This document shows, piece by piece, positions 14,014-54,188 of a stretch of 64,000 nt of DNA. Numbering within the stretch: the first letter of the stretch is position 1; each line of letters opens with the position of its first letter. Below the pieces are notes generated by a model, which did not search any database, was not told the DNA's origin, and saw nothing but the letters and a program-made list of their open reading frames with translations. Source of the DNA: Actinomycetota bacterium (lineage in GTDB: Bacteria > Actinomycetota > Thermoleophilia > Solirubrobacterales > 70-9); contig JAFDWB010000078.1 of assembly GCA_018268675.1 (NCBI GenBank), positions 1 to 64,000 on the forward strand. Reading direction: 5' to 3'. The position numbers and the translations under genes were made by a program.

Positions 14014-14067
14014 GGCGCGCCCGTCCCACCCTCACCTCGGCGGCCATGAGGGCGGGACGGGCGCGCC
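14014..14067. repeat. family A hairpin, copy 2
   Basis: Arms 14014-14034 and 14047-14067, 21 bp with one mismatch, loop 14035-14046 (CCTCGGCGGCCA). The left arm is identical to copy 1 at 2570-2590, and the right arm differs by one base. Confidence 0.85.
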
Positions 14068-14106
14068 TCGTGCGTGTCCGGTGACGGGCAGGCACGGCCC
14101 CACGGC

Positions 14107-14149
14107 GAGTTCGCAGAAACCCGCGGGTAGCGCGGGGAAGTGCGAACTC
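14107..14149. repeat. family C hairpin, variant with CCCGCG inner stem
   Basis: GAGTTCGCA pairs with TGCGAACTC, and an inner CCCGCG/CGCGGG stem follows. Nineteen bases from GAGTTCGCAG through AAACCCGCG are identical at 21632-21650. Confidence 0.8.
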
Positions 14150-14174
14150 ACCAGCGGCCCGCCCGGCCCGGGCC

Positions 14175-14227
14175 CCGGTGTGTTCGCAGTTATCTACAAC
14201 TGTTGTGGTCAACTGCGAACTCACCGG
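14175..14227. repeat. family C hairpin, copy 2
   Basis: GTTCGCAGTT (14182-14191) pairs perfectly with AACTGCGAAC (14211-14220). CCGGTG/CACCGG extends the stem outward after one mismatch. The inner palindrome ACAAC-T-GTTGT is at 14196-14206. It ends 35 bases beyond the SDR stop. Confidence 0.85.
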
Positions 14228-14262
14228 CCCCGGCGCAGGCCAAGGCGCGGCGCCGGCCGGCC

Positions 14263-16306: not shown

Positions 16307-17053
16307 CTACGTCAGCATCTCGCCGCCGTCCACCACCAGGGCATGCCCGGTCATGTAGGCGAACTCGGGGGAGAGCAGGCGGCAGGCTACGGCGGCGACC
16401 TCGCGGGCGTCGGCGATGCGGCCGATCGGGATCAGGTCGGGGACCGATTCGAGGAACTTCTCGTGGCCGCCGTAGGACTCCCAGGCGGGGGTGTTGAAGG
16501 GGGTGTCGACCCAGCCCGGGCAGAGGGCGTTGACGCGGATGCGGTCGGCGGCGTGGTCGCGGGCCAGGAGCTTCGCCATCGCGATCGTCGCCGCTTTGGT
16601 GGTCGAGTAGGTGAGCAGCTCACGGTCGGGGAAGAGACCCGCGTTCGAGGCGGTCAGGAGGAGCGCGCCGCCCCCGGCGGCGCGGAGGGCGGGCACCGCT
16701 CGCCGGGCGACGACGAAGTGGGCGCGGACGTTGAGGGCGTAGCAGCGATCGAGATCCTCGACCGCGGCGGTCTCGACCGTGCCCGCCGTCTGCATGCCGA
16801 CGTTGGACCAGACCGCGTCGACCCGGCCGAGCTCGCCGAGCGCGGTGGCGAGGACCTCGCCGAGCGCGTCGGGGTCGGTCGCGTCGACCACGTAGGCCGC
16901 GCCGCCGGTGTCCCCGGCGACCGCCTCGAGGCCGTCCGCCGCCAGGTCGAGCAGCGCCAGCCGCCAGCCTTCGGCGGCGAGGATCCGCGCCCCCTCGGCG
17001 CCGATGCCGCTGGCGCAGCCGAGGATCAGCGCCTGTCGACTTTCCGCGCTCAC
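16307..17053 (-). CDS. SDR family oxidoreductase in the diol dehydratase operon
   Basis: 248 residues. The cofactor loop is LGCASGIGAEGARIL, the acidic residue is in LALLDLAADG, and the catalytic residues lie in LTASNAG and YSTTKAATIAMAKLL. PGWVDTPFNTPAWESYGG is a substrate loop. The GTG start overlaps the stop of the dehydratase small subunit, making a tight operon. It probably oxidises or reduces a product of the dehydratase (aldehyde/alcohol or hydroxyketone). Family members near mycofactocin genes can use mycofactocin, but this protein lacks the long insertion of the classical mycofactocin SDRs. Confidence 0.9.
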   Translation of the reverse strand: MSAESRQALILGCASGIGAEGARILAAEGWRLALLDLAADGLEAVAGDTGGAAYVVDATDPDALGEVLATALGELGRVDAVWSNVGMQTAGTVETAAVEDLDRCYALNVRAHFVVARRAVPALRAAGGGALLLTASNAGLFPDRELLTYSTTKAATIAMAKLLARDHAADRIRVNALCPGWVDTPFNTPAWESYGGHEKFLESVPDLIPIGRIADAREVAAVACRLLSPEFAYMTGHALVVDGGEMLT

Positions 17054-17415
17054 GGGTCCGCCAACAATCCTCGCTCGGCGCCGCCGGCGATCGCCTCGCG
17101 CACCATCGCTGCCGTCGTCGCCGCGCCGCTCTCCTCCAGCTCGGCGACGATCGCCAGCAGCTCGGCGCGGGTCGAGCGACCCGGCCGCAGCGCCTCGTAG
17201 ATCGCCAGCAGACGCTCATCGGAGAGCGCCGTCATCTCGGCGGCGCGGCGCAGGTTCGCCGCCAGCTGCGGATTGCCGTGCGCGGCGGCGACCTCGGCCT
17301 GGGCCCGCAGGGTGTCGGGGTGGACGCGCAGGTCCTCGGCGGTGAGCTCGCCGGCGACCACGCGCTCGACCGTGATCTCCTCGACCGGCCGGCCGCTCCG
17401 CGCGCGCAGGGTCAC
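17050..17415 (-). CDS. propanediol/glycerol dehydratase small (gamma) subunit, copy 1
   Basis: 121 residues. It matches PduE-type gamma subunits: TVERVVAGELTAEDLRVHPDTLRAQAEVA, LAANLRRAAEMTALSDERLL and YEALRPGRSTRAELLAI. It lacks the longer N-terminal extension seen in enterobacterial subunits, which helps encapsulation or lowers solubility there, in keeping with the absence of shell genes. It overlaps both neighbours by 4 bases. It forms the holoenzyme with the fused large-medium subunit encoded just upstream. Confidence 0.92.
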   Translation of the reverse strand: MTLRARSGRPVEEITVERVVAGELTAEDLRVHPDTLRAQAEVAAAHGNPQLAANLRRAAEMTALSDERLLAIYEALRPGRSTRAELLAIVAELEESGAATTAAMVREAIAGGAERGLLADP

Positions 17416-19700
17416 GAGGCGGCCCTCGTCAGCTCGTTCGGCGGCGACGGCTCGCTGCGCTCGCGCTCGATCGCCACCAGGGCCAGCGCCCGCGTGTGGT
17501 AGCGCGCCGTGATCGCCTCCTCCGTGTAGGGGTTCTTCGCCGGCACCGTGACCACGCCCTTCGCGTGGCGGCCGGCGTTGATCCCCAGCGTCCGGTACAT
17601 CTCGCGGTCGATCAGCGGTGCCACCGAGTAGAGCTCGAGATTGGCGAGCGGCACCAGGTCGCGCCGGTGGATCAGCGCCGTCCCCTTCCCCTGCAGGCCG
17701 ACCGCGATCCCGGACCCGGCGAGGCGGGCGGCGGTCAACCCGACCAGGCCCAGGTCGACGGTCGAGCGGACCCGGATCAGGCGCGCCTCGCAGCCCTCCT
17801 CCTCGAGCCCGGCTTCGATCTCGCGCAGCGCGTCGCGCACGCTGAGCCCCGACAGCGTCGTCCAGATCCCGCGGCCCGCCGCGGGCGAGAGACCGATGCA
17901 GACCTCCCGCGGGTTGCTGCCCGCCGCCGCCGGCGGCCCCTCGACCAGGTGGAGCGTCGCCGCCGCCAGCTCCTGCTCGGCCCGCACCTCGCGCACCGAG
18001 ATCGCCTGGCGAACGCTCGCGATCTCGCGCCGCCGCCCCGGGTCGGGCTCATAGCCGGTCCCCGGGCCCGCATAATCGTTCGGGTCGGTCACCTTGGAGA
18101 GCACCCGCATGTCCTCGTCGAAGATCGCCGCGGTCTGGAGGTAGTCGCCCTTGAGCCGCTCGCGGATCATCGCCAGCACCCGCTCGGCCTCCTCGGCGAA
18201 CCCCTCCTCGGCGAGCGCGGCGACGATCTCGAGCGCGGTGATCGGCCGTCGCTGCACCGCCGTCGCCGCCTCGAGCACGGCGAGCGGATCCTCGACCGGC
18301 ACCTCCTTGGAGCCGTGCGCGGTGACCACCGCCTCGACGTGGGCCTCGTCGTAGTCGGCGAGCGCGAGCCGCCGGTAGACGGCCTGCGCCGCCCGCGCGG
18401 CCCGCTCGCGCACCGCCAGCACCTCCTCCTCGGCGGCCGGCCGCAGCCCGCCGTCGACCCCCCAGTCCCGCTGCAGCACCAGATAGTCGTCGAGGTCGTC
18501 GCCGTTGAAGTTCGACGGGCCGAACATGTTGTCGTAGCGGGTGATCGAGCCGAAGCCGGAGAAGAGGAAGTCCGAGCCCGCCAGCAGCAGCGGCACCGTG
18601 TGGGCGGTGCGGCGGATGTCGGATTCCGAGACCAGGGTGTCGTTGCCGGAGCAGGACTCGAGGTCGCGCAGCATCACCATCAGGTTCTCGGCCAGCAGCT
18701 CGCGCATCCCGTCCGGCACGGCGCCGACGACCGAGGCGCCGTCGATGCCCCCGTTCTGGACCCCCTGCGCGCCGATCGCCCGGGCGAGCGAGACGCAGCG
18801 CGACTCCAGGTAGAGCATCGAGCAACCCTCGGCGGCGCCCATCAGCACCTCCGCCCCGCCGCCGCTCGTCACCCGCATCTTCAGGCCCCGGGAGGCGTAG
18901 GCGGAGCAGAGGAAGGCCTTCGACCAGGGCGTGTCGTCGCCGTCGACGAAGACCTGCTCGGTGCCGTAGAGGGAGACGGTCTCGGCGTAGGTGGTGAGGC
19001 CGCGCATCCCCAGCTCGAGCTCCATCGCCTCCTCCACCGAGCACTGCGTGAGGGCGCCCGGCGCCGCGACCTGGGAGCCGATCAGGAGGGCGACCGCGTT
19101 CGAGGGCGCGTCCTCGAGCACCGGCACCGTCGTCTCCAGCTCGCGGAAGCCGAACGCCACCGCGGTCGCCGCGTCGGCGGCGATCAGCAGCGGGTCGTCG
19201 AGCCGGTTGGTCACGTGCGCCTGGATCGACGGCGTGCGGCGCACCCGCATCTTGGCGATCGCCATCTGGATCTCTACCGGCCGCAGCAGCCGCACCACGG
19301 CGGCGAGCTTGGCCGGGGTGATGCCGGCGACGAGGCGCGTGACCTCGGCGCGGGGGACGCCCGGGTCGACGATCCGCCGGGCCAGCTCGCCGTCCTCCAG
19401 CGCCATCGCCTCGGGCGCGACCTCGAGGTCGAGTCCGTGGTCGGCGATCATCCGGTCGATCACGTCGAAGCGCTCGCGCTGCCGGCCGTCCATCGCCGCC
19501 ACCCGGCCGTCGGGGCCGAGCTCGAGCGCGGGCTCGGGGTCCGCGGGCGAGCGCATCGCGACCAGCCCCAGCTCGGGGTCCTCGCGGGCGAGGCCGTCCC
19601 GGTTGACCGGCCGTCGGTCGAGCGCGGCGAAGCGGCCGCTGACGGGGCCGCCGGAGTTGGTCACCGGCCGCTCATCCGGCCGATGCCACCGCCGGCTCAT
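17412..19700 (-). CDS. fused large-medium subunits of B12-dependent diol/glycerol dehydratase, copy 1
   Basis: 762 residues. Residues to about 560 equal the PduC/DhaB1 large subunit, and the last 160 or so equal the medium subunit (EVCIGLSPAAGRGIWTTLSG to IHRRDLVPLANLELYS). It converts a 1,2-diol or glycerol to an aldehyde with adenosylcobalamin. The catalytic His block (IQAHVTN), the Glu of ELETTVPV and TYAETVSLYG are kept. ATG at 19700 overlaps the APC stop by 29 bases; a GTG at 19664 just after that stop is an equal candidate. Compared with copy 2, it has Ile instead of Asn before QAHVTN. Glycerol or 1,2-propanediol are the likely substrates. Confidence 0.93.
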   Translation of the reverse strand: MSRRWHRPDERPVTNSGGPVSGRFAALDRRPVNRDGLAREDPELGLVAMRSPADPEPALELGPDGRVAAMDGRQRERFDVIDRMIADHGLDLEVAPEAMALEDGELARRIVDPGVPRAEVTRLVAGITPAKLAAVVRLLRPVEIQMAIAKMRVRRTPSIQAHVTNRLDDPLLIAADAATAVAFGFRELETTVPVLEDAPSNAVALLIGSQVAAPGALTQCSVEEAMELELGMRGLTTYAETVSLYGTEQVFVDGDDTPWSKAFLCSAYASRGLKMRVTSGGGAEVLMGAAEGCSMLYLESRCVSLARAIGAQGVQNGGIDGASVVGAVPDGMRELLAENLMVMLRDLESCSGNDTLVSESDIRRTAHTVPLLLAGSDFLFSGFGSITRYDNMFGPSNFNGDDLDDYLVLQRDWGVDGGLRPAAEEEVLAVRERAARAAQAVYRRLALADYDEAHVEAVVTAHGSKEVPVEDPLAVLEAATAVQRRPITALEIVAALAEEGFAEEAERVLAMIRERLKGDYLQTAAIFDEDMRVLSKVTDPNDYAGPGTGYEPDPGRRREIASVRQAISVREVRAEQELAAATLHLVEGPPAAAGSNPREVCIGLSPAAGRGIWTTLSGLSVRDALREIEAGLEEEGCEARLIRVRSTVDLGLVGLTAARLAGSGIAVGLQGKGTALIHRRDLVPLANLELYSVAPLIDREMYRTLGINAGRHAKGVVTVPAKNPYTEEAITARYHTRALALVAIERERSEPSPPNELTRAAS

Positions 19701-21309
19701 CGCCCGCCCGCCCGGCCGGCAGCTCCCCCTCGACGTTGATGTCGACGAAGCGGCCGATCGCCTCGTAGCGGTCCTTCTTCTGACTGCGCCAGTAGAGCGC
19801 GAGGACGAAGCCGAAGGAGAAGATCGCCAGCGAGACCCACGGGATCAGCTTGACGAAGAGCGGCTCGCCTCCCGCCAGTGCCCCGAGGTTGGCCAGCATC
19901 TGCTGGCAGCCGAAGATCATCGCCGCGCAGCCGAGGATCGGCGCGATCACGGTCTTCCACCAGTGGAAGCCGTCGGTCGCGTGCTTCCAGAAGAACCAGA
20001 TGATCGCGATGCAACAGACCCCCTGGATCGCCAGCAACGCGAACACGCCCATCAGCGCCCCGTAGGTCGAGGTCTTGGTCAGCTGGGCCAGGGTCGAGGA
20101 ATCGGAGAGGATGAAGAGGGTGCAGTAGACGACCATCACGCAGCCGACGGCGAGGCTCGCCCGCCACGGGTTCTGGGCCCCCTCCCGGGTCTTTCCGAGG
20201 AAGCTCGGCAGGATGTCCTCGCGGGCCATCGAGAAGACATAGCGGGAGGCGGTCGAGTAGAAGGCGATGCCGGCCGCGAAGGAGCTGGTGATGATCAACC
20301 CCTCGTAGATGATCGTCATCCAGTGGCCGACGTAGCGGTCGGTGACCGGGTAGAAGGCCGAGCCGTATTCGTTCGGCAGCGCGTGGCCGGGGACCGCGCC
20401 GAGCTGGAGGGCGACGGCGTGTGAGACGTGTTCCGTGCCCCATCCCTCGACGAACATCCACATCACGAAGATGTACAGGATGCCGACGCCGATCACCGAG
20501 CCGTAGGTGGCCGGCCCGACGGTGCGGGCCGGGTGCCTGGACTCCTCGGCATAGTTCGGCGCCATCTCGAAGCCGGTCCAGGAGAAATAGGCACCGAAGA
20601 GGGCGATGCCGGCCGCGGCGGAGCCGAAGACGGCGGTCGCGGAGTTCGCGTTGCCGTCGAAGACCTTGACCGGGTTGAGCGGTTCCAGCGAGATGCCGTT
20701 GGCGCCGCCCTTCAGCAGGATCACGATGCCGAGGATGGTCAGCATGATCACCTCGGCACAGAGGGCGACGCCGAGGATGCGCGCGGTGATCTTGACCTCG
20801 AAGTAGGAGATGCCGACGGTGATCGCGATCGCGACGAAGACGAGCAGCCAGCCGGGGATGCTGACCCCGAACCAGTTGTCGAAGGTGGTCGAGAGCCAGT
20901 AGCCGGAAACGCCCTGCTGCTGACAGGCGAACATGACGTAGGCGAACATCACCGTGCAGGCGGAGGCGAGGCCAAGGACCTTGCCGAGGCCGTGGGAGAT
21001 GAAGGTGTAGAAGCCGCCCGCGGCGTTGACGCGGCGCGCCATCTGCACGTAGCCGACGGTGAAGACGACGAGGCCGATCAGGGTCAGGATGAAGGACGCG
21101 GGGGCCGCCCAGCCGGCGCCGAGCACCGTCAGCGGCCCGTTGAACAGCATCGCCGCGATCGGCGCGGCGCCGGTGACGACGAGGAAGACCACGCCGATCA
21201 CCCCGACCGAGCCCGCCTTGAGGCTCTGGTCGGCGGTCCTCATCTCGGTGGGGACCTCGCCCTCGGCCGTGGCGTGGTGCATGCCAGGTTCGTTGACCTC
21301 GTCGCTCAC
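19672..21309 (-). CDS. APC family amino acid/amine permease
   Basis: 545 residues with about 12 membrane segments and the APC signature region SVGVIGVVFLVVTGAAPIAA followed by the AGGFYTFISHGLGK block. It is a proton- or sodium-coupled importer in the cytoplasmic membrane, of the kind that takes up amino acids, polyamines or ethanolamine. GTG at 21309 is preferred: GAGAGGGAG precedes it and a GntR-type motif lies 37-49 bases upstream. It heads the operon with diol dehydratase copy 1 and the SDR. An amino alcohol or diol-related amine is therefore an attractive cargo, but this is inference. Confidence 0.9.
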   Translation of the reverse strand: MSDEVNEPGMHHATAEGEVPTEMRTADQSLKAGSVGVIGVVFLVVTGAAPIAAMLFNGPLTVLGAGWAAPASFILTLIGLVVFTVGYVQMARRVNAAGGFYTFISHGLGKVLGLASACTVMFAYVMFACQQQGVSGYWLSTTFDNWFGVSIPGWLLVFVAIAITVGISYFEVKITARILGVALCAEVIMLTILGIVILLKGGANGISLEPLNPVKVFDGNANSATAVFGSAAAGIALFGAYFSWTGFEMAPNYAEESRHPARTVGPATYGSVIGVGILYIFVMWMFVEGWGTEHVSHAVALQLGAVPGHALPNEYGSAFYPVTDRYVGHWMTIIYEGLIITSSFAAGIAFYSTASRYVFSMAREDILPSFLGKTREGAQNPWRASLAVGCVMVVYCTLFILSDSSTLAQLTKTSTYGALMGVFALLAIQGVCCIAIIWFFWKHATDGFHWWKTVIAPILGCAAMIFGCQQMLANLGALAGGEPLFVKLIPWVSLAIFSFGFVLALYWRSQKKDRYEAIGRFVDINVEGELPAGRAGDEPAVASAG

Positions 21310-21345
21310 TCTCTCACTCCCTCTCCAACAATCGCCCAATTGCAA

Positions 21346-21358
21346 GATTGGTCATCAA
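21346..21358. promoter_or_regulatory. GntR-type operator candidate, APC permease promoter
   Basis: GATTGGTCATCAA, containing TTGGTC-AT-CAA (minus strand TTGATGACCAA). Sixteen of 21 bases from here to TCTACAA match the site between the Zn alcohol dehydrogenase and dehydratase copy 2. GTTGTCCGA, also present beside the third site, follows. Confidence 0.6.
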
Positions 21359-21481
21359 ATCTACAAGTTGTCCGACAGCGATGTCAATCCCTCCGTCCCC
21401 CCAAACGGCGGAGAGCGACGGGGGCGAGCCGGGGTAGGGACGGGAGCATGCGCTTCGCGGCGCGTGCCGGCTGCCGCCCCC

Positions 21482-21533
21482 GGCGCGCCCGTCCCCCTCA
21501 TGCTTCGGCTGTTATGAGGGCGACGGGCGCGCC
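21482..21533. repeat. family A hairpin, copy 3
   Basis: Arms 21482-21501 and 21514-21533, 20 bp with one C-C mismatch, 12-base loop GCTTCGGCTGTT. The outer arm GGCGCGCCCGTC is shared with copies 1 and 2. Confidence 0.85.
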
Positions 21534-21570
21534 TCGGCCCGCGCCGGGATCAGAGGAGCCCCGGCCTTCC

Positions 21571-21609
21571 GGTGTTCCTTACTTGCCTATACGGCGAGTA
21601 AGGAACACC
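21571..21609. repeat. family B hairpin, copy 1
   Basis: GGTGTTCCTTACT pairs perfectly with AGTAAGGAACACC. A T-G pair and GCC/GGC continue to a TATAC loop. It shares TGTTCCTT/AAGGAACA and an inner GCC/GGC with copies at 21694-21734 and 53992-54040. Confidence 0.85.
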
Positions 21610-21626
21610 GCAGGGGCCGACCCCCC

Positions 21627-21679
21627 CCGGTGAGTTCGCAGAAACCCGCGCCATGCGCGGCAAACTGCGAACTCACCGG
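21627..21679. repeat. family C hairpin, copy 3 (15-bp perfect stem)
   Basis: CCGGTGAGTTCGCAG pairs perfectly with CTGCGAACTCACCGG. An inner CCGCG/CGCGG stem sits between AAAC and CAAA. Confidence 0.85.
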
Positions 21680-21693
21680 CAGGCAGCGTTGCC

Positions 21694-21734
21694 GGCTGTT
21701 CCTTTTGCCGACCCCTCCGGCAAAAGGAACAGCC
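21694..21734. repeat. family B hairpin, copy 2 (17-bp perfect stem)
   Basis: GGCTGTTCCTTTTGCCG pairs perfectly with the right arm at 21718-21734; loop ACCCCTC. Confidence 0.85.
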
Positions 21735-21774
21735 AACTGGGACGCGGCGCGCGCCCTGGGCCGGCGCGGGCCAA

Positions 21775-21826
21775 GGCGCGGCCATCGCCCTCATAACAGC
21801 CGAGCGATGAGGGGGATGGCCGCGCC
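21775..21826. repeat. family A hairpin, copy 4 (inverted)
   Basis: Arms 21775-21794 and 21807-21826, 20 bp with one mismatch; loop AACAGCCGAGCG is the near reverse complement of the loop of copy 3, so this copy is inverted. Two stem pairs differ from copy 3 in both arms, keeping pairing. It ends 26 bases from the alcohol dehydrogenase stop. Confidence 0.85.
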
Positions 21827-21852
21827 GGCGCGCGGCAGCCGGCCGCCCCCCG

Positions 21853-22947
21853 TCAGGGCACGAGGAGCTGGCGGAGGACCTCGCCGGCGGCGAGGTCCTC
21901 GAGGGCGTCGGGGGCCTCCGAGAGGGGGCGCCGGCCGCTGATCAGGGGGTCGAGCTCGAGGGTGCCGTCCATGTAGAGGTCGACGAGAGCGGGGATGTCG
22001 CGGTGGGCGTCGACCGAGCCGTAGTTGGAGCCGAGGATCCGCTGGTCGGCCTCGGCGAGAACGAGGGGGTCGAAGGAGGCGCGGCTGCCGGTCGGCGGCA
22101 GGCCGACCACCACCGCGGCGCCGCCCAGGGCGAGCATCTCGATCGCCTGTTCGGTCGTCTCGGTGCGGCCGATCGCGTCGAAGCAGTAGTCGACCCCTTC
22201 CGGCATCAGCTCGCGCAGGCGCTCGACCGCGCCCTCGCCGCCCGCCAGGGTGTCGGTGGCGCCGAGGCGGCGCGCCAGCTCCAGCTTGCCCTCGACCAGG
22301 TCGATCGCGACGATCCGCGCGGCGCCGGCGAGGCGGGCACCCTGGACGCAGGAGAGGCCGACGCCGCCGCAGCCGATCACCGCCACCGTCGCGCCCTCCT
22401 CCACGCCGGCCGTGTTGCGGACCGAGCCGACCCCGGTCGCGACCGCGCAGCCGATCAGCGCGATCGGCTCGAGCGGCGCGTCGCCGCGGACCTTGATCGC
22501 CCCCGAGGCGGGCACGACCGCGCGCTCGGCGAAGGAGGAGACCGCCAGGTAGTGGTGCAATTTCTCGCCGCCCGCCGAGAGCCGCGAGGTGCCGTCGAAA
22601 AGGACGCCGCCGGGCGCGGTGACGGTGGCGGCGACGACGCACTGCGCCGGGCGCCCGGCCCGGCAGGGGCGGCACTCGCCGCAGCTCGGCACCCAGGAAA
22701 GGACCACGTGGTCGCCCGGGGCGAGCGCCTCGACGCCCTCGCCGACCGCGACCACTTCCCCCGCGCCCTCGTGGCCGAGCACCACCGGGGTCGGCACGTC
22801 CCAATCGCCGCGCACCACGTGGAGGTCGGAGTGACAGACCCCGGCCGCCGCGATCGCGACCTCGACCTCGCCCGGCCCCGGCGCGGCCAGGTCGACGTCG
22901 GTGTACTCGGGGCGCGCGCCGTCACCCGGGTAGACGATCGCTTTCAT
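21853..22947 (-). CDS. zinc-binding alcohol dehydrogenase
   Basis: 364 residues, MDR/class III-like. Catalytic zinc ligands are in AGVCHSDLH and LGHEGAG, and the structural zinc site is CGECRPCRAGRPAQC. The NAD-binding loop is VIGCGGVGLSCVQGAR followed by acidic IVAIDL. It oxidises an alcohol or reduces an aldehyde. It resembles the NDMA-dependent, mycofactocin-linked alcohol dehydrogenases whose NAD(H) stays bound, but assignment to that subfamily needs an HMM search. The start lies 7 bases from a TACAAT box, so the mRNA is probably leaderless. It is divergent from dehydratase copy 2 and shares its promoter region. Confidence 0.92.
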   Translation of the reverse strand: MKAIVYPGDGARPEYTDVDLAAPGPGEVEVAIAAAGVCHSDLHVVRGDWDVPTPVVLGHEGAGEVVAVGEGVEALAPGDHVVLSWVPSCGECRPCRAGRPAQCVVAATVTAPGGVLFDGTSRLSAGGEKLHHYLAVSSFAERAVVPASGAIKVRGDAPLEPIALIGCAVATGVGSVRNTAGVEEGATVAVIGCGGVGLSCVQGARLAGAARIVAIDLVEGKLELARRLGATDTLAGGEGAVERLRELMPEGVDYCFDAIGRTETTEQAIEMLALGGAAVVVGLPPTGSRASFDPLVLAEADQRILGSNYGSVDAHRDIPALVDLYMDGTLELDPLISGRRPLSEAPDALEDLAAGEVLRQLLVP

Positions 22948-22954
22948 CCCAGAA

Positions 22955-22960
22955 ATTGTA
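22955..22960 (-). promoter_or_regulatory. -10 box of the alcohol dehydrogenase gene (leaderless)
   Basis: On the minus strand TACAAT is followed by exactly 7 bases (TTCTGGG) and the ATG. That spacing places transcription at or next to the start codon. There is no real SD. Confidence 0.6.
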
Positions 22961-22976
22961 GACCAAACGACCAATC
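22956..22976. promoter_or_regulatory. GntR-type operator candidate between alcohol dehydrogenase and dehydratase copy 2
   Basis: On the minus strand the site reads GATTGGTCGTTTGGTC then TACAA, with two GGTC half-sites. It contains TTG-TAGAC-CAA on the plus strand. It overlaps both the alcohol dehydrogenase -10 box and the dehydratase -35 box (TTGTAG, 22956-22961), so a bound repressor would block both promoters. Confidence 0.65.
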
Positions 22977-22979
22977 CTC

Positions 22980-22985
22980 TATCCT
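22980..22985 (+). promoter_or_regulatory. -10 box of dehydratase copy 2 (leaderless)
   Basis: TATCCT follows a TTGTAG -35 candidate by 18 bases and precedes the ATG at 22993 by exactly 7 bases. Confidence 0.55.
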
Positions 22986-22992
22986 CCGCGAG

Positions 22993-25257
22993 ATGGGAGG
23001 TGAGCCCCGCAACGACGGATCGCGAGCGCGCTCCGGTCGCTTCGCCGCGCTCGACGCCGCCGCCGTCAACCAGGACGGCTTCCTGCGCGAGGAGCACGCC
23101 GCCGGCCTGGTGACGATGTCCTCCCCGGCCGACCCCGAGCCCTCGCTGCGGGTCGAGGACGGCGTCGTGGTCGAGCTCGACGGCCGGCCGGCGGCGGAGT
23201 TCGACGTGATCGACGAGTTCCTCGCCGCCCACGGCATCGACCTTGCCGTCGCCGCCGAGGCGATGGCGCTCGAGCCGGTGCAGATCGCCCGCATGCTGGT
23301 CGACATCAACGTGCCCCGCGAGGAGGTGGTGCGGATCGCCCGCGGCCTCACCCCGGCGGCGCTCGCCCGGGCCGTCGCCCTTCTGCGCCCCGCCGAGACG
23401 GTCCTCGCGCTGACCAAGATGCGCGCCCGCCGCACGCCCTCCAACCAGGCCCACGTCACCAACCGCCTCGACGACCCGCTGCTGATCGCCGCCGACGCCG
23501 CCACCGCCGTCGCCTTCGGCTTCCGCGAGCTGGAGACGACCGTGCCCGTCCTCGGCGACGCCCCCTGCAACGCGCTGGCGATGCTGGTCGGCTCCCAGGT
23601 CGCCGCCGCCGGGGCGCTCACCCAGTGCTCGATCGAGGAGTCCCAGGAGCTCCTGCTCGGCCTCCGCGGCCTCACCACCTACGCCGAGACGATCTCCCTC
23701 TACGGCACCGAGCAGGTCTTCGTCGACGGCGACGACACCCCGTTCTCGAAGGCCTTCCTCGCCTCCGCCTACGCCTCGCGCGGGCTGAAGCTGCGGGTCA
23801 CCAGCGGCGCCGGCGCCGAGGTCCTGATGGGCGCCGCCGAAGGCTGCTCGATGCTCTACCTGGAGGCCCGCTGCGTGAAGCTCGCCTGGGCGATCGGCGC
23901 GCAAGGCGTCCAGAACGGCGCGATCGAGGGGATCAACATCGCCGGCGCGCTGCCGCGCGGGATGGCCGAGGCGGTGGCGGAGAACCTGATGGTGATGATG
24001 TGCGGCCTCGAGTCCTGCAGCGGCAACGACACCCTGATGTCGCAGTCCGACGTCCGCCGCACCGCGCACGTCATGCCGATCTTCCTCGCCGGCTCCGACT
24101 TCCTCTTCTCCGGCTTCGGCTCGGTGACCGCCTACGACAACATGTTCGGGCCCTCGAACTTCAACGGCGACGACCTCGACGATTACCTCGTCCTGCAGCG
24201 CGACTGGGGCGTCGACGGCGGCCTGCGCCCGGTCGACGAGCCGGAGCTGCTCGACCTGCGGCGACGCGCCGCGACCGCGGTCCGCGACGTCCTCCACCAT
24301 CTCGGCCTCGCCAGCTTCGACGACGCGCGGATCGAGGCGGTCGTCGGCGCCCACGGCTCCAAGGACCTCGAGGATCTCGACCCGCAGATCGTCGTCGACG
24401 CCGCCCAGGGGATCGTCGAGCGGCCGGTGACCGCCGTCGAGGTCGTCGCCGCGCTCGCCGCGACCGGCCACGCCGCCGAGGCCGAGCGGGTGATGGCGAT
24501 GCTCCATCAGCGGCTGCTCGGCACCTACCTGCAGACCGCCGCCGTCCTGGACGAGGAGATGAACGTGCTCTCGGCACGCACCGACCCCAACGATTATCGC
24601 GGCCCCGGCACCGGCTACCAGCTCGCGCCGGCGCGCCAGGCGGAGATCGACGGCATCCGCCAGGCCCGCACCCGCGCCGACCTGCTGGGCGAGTTCGGCC
24701 GGCCGCTCGCCGGAGTCGAGTTCCGCGAGCGCGGCGAGGCCCAGCCCGCCGCCGACCCGCGCGAGGTCGCGATCGGCGTCTCCCCCAGCTTCGCCGCCGA
24801 GATCAACTGGACCCTGTCCGGCCAGAGCGTCTGGGAGGCGCTGCGGCAGATCCTCGCCGGGATCGAGGAGGAAGAATGCGTCGGCCGCGTGATCAAGGTC
24901 CGCCACACCATCGACGTCGGCCTGATCGGCCTGACCGCCGCGCGCCTCTCCGGCTCCGGGATCGGCGTCGGCCTGCAGGCCAAGGGCACGGTCCTGATCC
25001 ACCGCCGCGACCTGCCGCCGCTGGCAAACCTGGAGCTGCTCTCGGTCGCCCCGGTGATCACCGCCGAGATGTACCGGACGGTCGGCCAGAACGCCGCCCG
25101 CCACGTCAAGGGCGCGCCGCTGAAGCCGCTGCGCAACCCCTACACCGAAGAGACGATCGGCGCCCGCTACCACGCCTCGACCGTCGGCCTGGTGGCGATC
25201 GAGCGCGCCGCCTCGCGGCCGGGGGCGGCGCCGGTCGACCTCGAGGTGGTGCGATGA
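22993..25257 (+). CDS. fused large-medium subunits of B12-dependent diol/glycerol dehydratase, copy 2
   Basis: 754 residues with the same fusion as copy 1: large subunit from FAALDAAAVNQDGFLREEH to PNDYRGPGTGY, medium subunit from EVAIGVSPSFAAEINWTLSG to HASTVGLVAIERA. The His block SNQAHVTN and Glu in ELETTVPV match the Klebsiella enzyme (His143, Glu170). It needs adenosylcobalamin and acts on a diol or glycerol to give an aldehyde. It starts at ATG 22993 without an SD; upstream in-frame extension crosses the divergent promoter and is rejected. ATGA overlap leads to the small subunit. The N-terminus has no encapsulation-type extension. Confidence 0.95.
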   Translation: MGGEPRNDGSRARSGRFAALDAAAVNQDGFLREEHAAGLVTMSSPADPEPSLRVEDGVVVELDGRPAAEFDVIDEFLAAHGIDLAVAAEAMALEPVQIARMLVDINVPREEVVRIARGLTPAALARAVALLRPAETVLALTKMRARRTPSNQAHVTNRLDDPLLIAADAATAVAFGFRELETTVPVLGDAPCNALAMLVGSQVAAAGALTQCSIEESQELLLGLRGLTTYAETISLYGTEQVFVDGDDTPFSKAFLASAYASRGLKLRVTSGAGAEVLMGAAEGCSMLYLEARCVKLAWAIGAQGVQNGAIEGINIAGALPRGMAEAVAENLMVMMCGLESCSGNDTLMSQSDVRRTAHVMPIFLAGSDFLFSGFGSVTAYDNMFGPSNFNGDDLDDYLVLQRDWGVDGGLRPVDEPELLDLRRRAATAVRDVLHHLGLASFDDARIEAVVGAHGSKDLEDLDPQIVVDAAQGIVERPVTAVEVVAALAATGHAAEAERVMAMLHQRLLGTYLQTAAVLDEEMNVLSARTDPNDYRGPGTGYQLAPARQAEIDGIRQARTRADLLGEFGRPLAGVEFRERGEAQPAADPREVAIGVSPSFAAEINWTLSGQSVWEALRQILAGIEEEECVGRVIKVRHTIDVGLIGLTAARLSGSGIGVGLQAKGTVLIHRRDLPPLANLELLSVAPVITAEMYRTVGQNAARHVKGAPLKPLRNPYTEETIGARYHASTVGLVAIERAASRPGAAPVDLEVVR

Positions 25258-53991: not shown

Positions 53992-54040
53992 GTCCAGCTG
54001 TTCCTTATGGCCGATATACCGGCATAAGGAACAGCTGGAC
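53992..54040. repeat. family B hairpin, copy 3 (18-bp perfect stem)
   Basis: GTCCAGCTGTTCCTTATG (53992-54009) pairs perfectly with the right arm at 54023-54040; loop contains GATATAC. The TGTTCCTT/AAGGAACA core is shared with 21571-21609 and 21694-21734, 32 kb away. Confidence 0.88.
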
Positions 54041-54188
54041 CGAGGGCGTCCTGCCACACCCCCGCGACCTTCCTCTCCCCTCAGACCCGGCCGTCTCGGC
54101 CACGGCCACGGCCCGCCAGGGTCGTGGACGAGACGGCCCATCCCTTGTTCCGGGCGGCAGCCGGCAAGGGCCACGCCCCGGAGCCCGC

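Follow-up and report, generated by a model that had tools for sequence, protein, structure and literature searches.

The REP/BIME/REPIN repeats with their RAYTs are the closest described systems to the array reported here, and share with it a palindromic and extragenic nature, high copy number, inverted pairs, inner segments that vary, mosaic clusters, stems specific to each species and a tendency to pair with a different partner. The E. coli yafM gene has a different REP on either side (PMC2817692, PMC3733652), and the RAYTs of PMC2817692 all carry a Y1_Tnp domain. Two further features are common to our arrays and the CGTC-tagged REPs: no dedicated transposase is known, and head-to-head dimers, often heterodimers, prevail (PMC3733652). 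The existence of REP-type repeats without a known transposase is stated to be an open question for the CGTC-tagged group, and, according to the same paper, there is no obvious explanation for why REP dimers favour different partners (PMC3733652).

We analysed a 64,000-nt stretch of DNA from an Actinomycetota bacterium (the window) and found five strong hairpins at 21466-21843, in the order A1-B1-C-B2-A2 (table 1). The earlier note had described five hairpins here; they are present with the loops exactly as quoted, and when folded as single-stranded DNA each of them beats its shuffled counterparts (z from -4.4 to -9.2, with 0 of 200 dinucleotide shuffles equally good). The conserved unit is longer than first stated and includes an outer motif, GCCGGCTGCCGC / GCGGCAGCCGGC, which lies beyond both ends in inverted orientation and whose CCGGC pairs with the inner GCCGG in the predicted fold. 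The outer copies A1 and A2 are inverted, with 68-nt arms that are 88% complementary. The proposed mirror order A-B-C-B-A is strict only for these two ends, since B1 and B2 belong to separate families with a common GTTCCTT core and the stems of A1 and A2 are related but different. Kissing loops between the two ends were considered but seem unlikely, as the loop variants do not match by eye. A search of the whole window against Rfam at the gathering score gave no matches. We consider it probable that the array represents a single copy of a REP/BIME-like mobile palindromic element of ~375 bp that is non-coding and non-autonomous and is moved by a putative mobiliser.

Table 1. Features of the array and of its flanks (window coordinates).
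Feature	Position	Strand	Details
Dehydratase gene	17412-19664	-	Pfam
Amino acid permease gene	19672-21309	-	Pfam; promoter region between permease and A1; flank, outside element
Left outer motif GCCGGCTGCCGCC	21466-21478	+	kept outside A1/A2/A4 end hairpins; 25-33x over background
End hairpin A1 (alpha end)	21482-21533	+	20-nt arms; 12-nt loop GCTTCGGCTGTT at 21502-21513
Inner module B1	21570-21610	+	stem GGTGTTCCTTACTTGCC, loop TATAC
Inner module C	21627-21679	+	stem CCGGTGAGTTCGCAG
Inner module B2	21694-21734	+	perfect stem GGCTGTTCCTTTTGCCG, loop ACCCCTC
End hairpin A2 (beta end)	21775-21826	-	loop AACAGCCGAGCG at 21795-21806 on + strand
Right outer motif, reverse complement of GCCGGCTGCCGC	21832-21843	-	inverted pair with left motif
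Zinc-binding alcohol dehydrogenase (ADH) gene	21853-22947	-	Pfam; gene end adjoins A2; flank, outside element
Dehydratase gene	22993-25257	+	Pfam

A search of the bacterium's own genome (4.2 Mb in 95 contigs), as the earlier note had suggested, returned further copies of every array family, dispersed across the genome; the refuting outcome named in that note, a lack of additional copies, did not occur. There are at least 40 sites for A and at least 34 for B1; for C, the best 40 of 118 candidates scored as sites, and B2 is present in 10 copies in an 810-kb sample. A contiguous 345-kb contig of this genome holds 71 such hairpins, compared with 4-5 in Markov controls. Cluster and copy counts were taken from stretches of 810 kb of the own genome and 380 kb of a congener (G006), in which hairpin clustering gave 15 and 12 multi-copy clusters, respectively. 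These clusters are of two kinds. End hairpins (A1/A2, A3, A4, A5, A6 and A7) combine long stems with a ~12-nt loop whose last bases are GGCTGT(T) or a close variant; inner modules (B, C, D, E, J, K and others) have mostly short, often self-complementary loops such as CATATG, CATG or TATA. By eye, different inner modules occupy one and the same local context in G006, ACGGACGCG...CGCGTTCCCGGGCC, as if they had been exchanged. The repeat system also occurs elsewhere in the window, as an A1 variant at 2570-2623, an A1 variant with C copies at 14014-14228, and B2 with A4 at 53992-54138. Six G006 contigs (L117, L120, L122, L124, L126 and L130) begin inside arrays. Assemblies thus break at arrays, and the repeats are probably undercounted.

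To examine how the ends are combined, we collected every pair of adjacent end hairpins separated by less than 900 nt, in sequence data that cover six species of the genus. The 40 pairs are without exception head-out, spanning ~230-830 nt, and every one of them joins an alpha to a beta end (A1 with A2; A3 with A4 or A5); the alpha and beta labels were set by us from the hairpin families, and the rule is that same-type pairs number zero in this 40-pair sample. The end hairpins have unrelated stems and a common 12-nt loop (..GGCTGT). Stems vary by species while the loop stays: one stem, for example, is identical in 23 G006 copies. The outer motif gCCGGCTGNCGCC adjoins most ends and is found outside A1, A2 and A4, at 0.67-1.03 per 200 nt against a background of 0.03. 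A3 ends carry an outer motif of their own, CGTCCGAG, and both types are repeated in tandem in G006. At two places in that genome (L123:560-760 and L119 ~17000-17175), 4-5 tandem copies of a ~30-bp repeat with a AGCTGTCGCCC core lie beside A4 ends in an iteron-like arrangement. The heterotypic rule and the constant loop together provide a concrete recognition hypothesis, and the partner preference of REP dimers could be tackled with the present arrays.

We then compared the slot of the array with its counterparts in sister genomes, among them the nearest named records, the unclassified Actinomycetota MAGs SZAS-9 and SZAS-14. In SZAS-9 and G006, ADH and permease are joined without hairpins (135 nt lie between them in SZAS-9, contig L049); compared with this hairpin-free slot, the aligned flanks in the own genome stand 396 bases further apart. 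In SZAS-14 (contig L050), the same permease has another array upstream of it, made up of an A5 end and a CATG module. Two further array slots of the own genome have no end hairpins in G006, at one other G006 has an array of a different make-up, and one array slot of G006 has an empty counterpart in the own genome. At no comparable slot do the two genomes have an end hairpin in common, and array positions turn over quickly between close species. The hairpin-free slot in G006 could also reflect a loss instead of an insertion in the own lineage, and modules could be exchanged by recombination between repeats and not by transposition. The composite mobile palindrome cluster that had been proposed is supported by the dispersed families, by a slot that is empty in one sister and filled with another array in the other, and by the inverted heterotypic ends. 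An 11-nt overlap at the empty site is not taken for a duplication, as it reaches into a hairpin arm and is probably a GC-rich chance match.

A covariance model was built from A3/A4/A5/A7 only (A1/A2 and A6 came out misaligned when all end families were aligned together). It gave at least 60 matches in each of six genomes of the genus (G000, G003, G006, G007, G008 and G011; 3.8-4.7 Mb), that is, at least about 30 sites per genome, since a palindrome can match both strands. The other six genomes of the genus (2.4-3.4 Mb) yielded one match in G010 and none in the remaining five. In this uncultured actinobacterial genus, repeat load and genome size go together. The model found nothing in 89 genomes outside the genus, and when 399 genomes were drawn from across the class, none beyond the genus gave a match; it is partly sequence-specific, and distant relatives with other loops could escape it. 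For the A1/A2 hairpins, only short partial matches were obtained in 60 other genomes of the order, which suggests that this family expanded in the present species. The exact A-hairpin pattern was absent from 84,980 species genomes and from viral contigs, and searches of phage and plasmid collections gave none either. Among the genomes searched, the arrays are restricted to part of one genus, and this on/off distribution, with six bearers and six genomes with no or one match, offers a direct route to the responsible gene.

Three candidate enzymes, Y1, IS110 and a reverse transcriptase, do not follow this distribution. The REP-associated Y1 transposase (RAYT; PF01797) was found in 0 of 12 genus genomes, while the controls were positive in 5 of 14, and it was rejected as the mobiliser. 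The IS110 transposase (PF01548) is present in G001, G008 and G010 only, hence absent from five of the six array-bearing genomes, and the RVT_1 reverse transcriptase (PF00078) in G008 and G010 only; neither tracks the arrays, and both were rejected. Y2_Tnp (PF04986; IS91/Y2 HUH element) gave zero matches, as it did in the control genomes. No autonomous copy of the element was seen, although a longer one could hide in assembly gaps, given how often G006 contigs start inside arrays.

The arrays consist of dispersed extragenic palindromes in high copy, as REPs do, and their inverted palindrome pairs around a variable inner segment correspond to a BIME/REPIN organisation. In contrast to REP/RAYT repeats, their ends lack a GTAG head at the hairpin base, the stems are longer (18-28 bp), the 12-nt loop is conserved, the inner hairpin families are unrelated, and the Y1 transposase is missing. 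End alignments searched for a GTAG or CGTC tag at the hairpin base revealed no fixed tetranucleotide; gCCGGCTGNCGCC (A1/A2/A4) or CGTCCGAG (A3) is found outside instead. The array is thus built like a BIME or REPIN but, without the transposase and the tag, cannot be filed as a REP/RAYT member. The CGTC-tagged REPs differ as well, with stems of 8-9 bp, loops of 4-5 nt and a terminal CGTC tag (PMC3733652), compared with 18-28 bp, 12 nt and an outer GCTGNCGCC here. The element is short and non-coding and has inverted ends around a variable interior; each end is itself a large hairpin, and the two stems are different. Six A1/A2 pairs, a small sample that makes for a weak test, showed no excess of the target-site duplications expected of a DDE-type MITE over permuted flanks.

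The location of the arrays bears on whether they act on transcripts. Among convergent gaps, 28% (own genome) and 40% (G006) contain repeat hairpins; the share is ~10% for tandem gaps and 2-6% for divergent ones. Within tandem gaps, the hairpins lie closer to the stop codon of the upstream gene in 41 of 51 cases; these figures are approximate, as they come from a home-made gene caller that miscalled the ADH of the window, and the 62 G006 hairpins placed inside predicted genes probably reflect spurious frames across arrays. Such a preference for gene 3' ends would fit hairpins that serve as bidirectional terminators or mRNA 3'-end stabilisers between genes, with the repeats kept for that role. 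Survival away from promoters is expected for any tolerated insertion. None of the five hairpins is followed by a U-tract, and a terminator search returned one terminator-like match, at chance level, which is none of the five. Among ~1,500 stem pairs of end hairpins, G-T mismatches (6) are not in excess over A-C mismatches (20, including ten of a single kind in A4), which argues against selection at the RNA level and points to DNA. A terminator or stabiliser would also have to be reconciled with the array-free slot in a sister species, the fast positional turnover, the near absence from six congeneric genomes, and the fact that only A2 adjoins a gene end here, A1 being upstream of the permease promoter. 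We therefore regard this explanation as improbable, though the array may have an incidental effect on read-through.

We give the same low probability to a spread without any dedicated transposase, through gene conversion, recombination between ectopic copies or template switching at palindromes, a mode of spread that would also maintain stem complementarity. In the stem-pair count, changes fall on both sides, none is one-sided and there are almost no intermediates; the sequences were preselected as hairpins, so pairing itself is no evidence. These complementary changes, the swapping of modules inside identical local contexts and the lack of a Y1, IS110 or reverse transcriptase enzyme that tracks the arrays all agree with such a process. 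Conversion needs a resident copy, yet arrays occur where sister genomes have a clean slot, and the invariant head-out heterotypic pairs with their outer motif resemble ends recognised by an enzyme. The iteration of outer motifs in up to 4-5 tandem copies in G006, the high genomic density and the 3'-end preference could alternatively indicate that the arrays are stations, repeated by happenstance, to which a nucleoid or chromosome-segregation protein binds. If essential, such a station would be hard to reconcile with the fast positional turnover between close species and the near absence from the smaller congeneric genomes, and we consider this reading very improbable.

Under the preferred reading, that of a mobile palindromic element, the two different hairpin ends (A1 as alpha, A2 as beta) face outward, each with its short outer motif, and carry exchangeable palindromic modules between them. 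Each end hairpin would form in single-stranded DNA or as a cruciform, and a mobiliser acting in trans would recognise the conserved 12-nt loop and the outer motif and copy the unit into new places. Copies would persist mostly in 3'-flanking spaces, where they are least harmful, and species-specific stem versions would then spread through each genome. Any effect of the array on transcription would be secondary. The machinery that moves the unit has a fair chance of being new. It is possible, although we hold it to be doubtful, that the arrays represent a new class of hairpin-ended mobile element with obligatorily different ends, recognition through a constant loop on freely changing stems, exchangeable palindrome cassettes, and a moving enzyme other than Y1, IS110 or reverse transcriptase.

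The second role suggested for the array, a roadblock insulating the two dehydratase operons, does not agree with the gene order. The operons separate at 22948-22992, a divergent gap, whereas the array is found between ADH and permease; the sister species that does without it, the missing U-tracts and the lack of a G-U preference in the stems likewise speak against insulation. The two dehydratases are paralogues in neighbouring operons, with large- and medium-subunit domains fused in each protein. Before the permease, downstream of a promoter-like TTGACA..TAGATT, we noticed a palindrome, CCAATCTTGCAATTGG (21336-21351, minus strand), identical in SZAS-9 and SZAS-14. It is likely to be an operator. 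Promoter region and palindrome are conserved in all three genomes, which indicates that insertion of the array left both intact.
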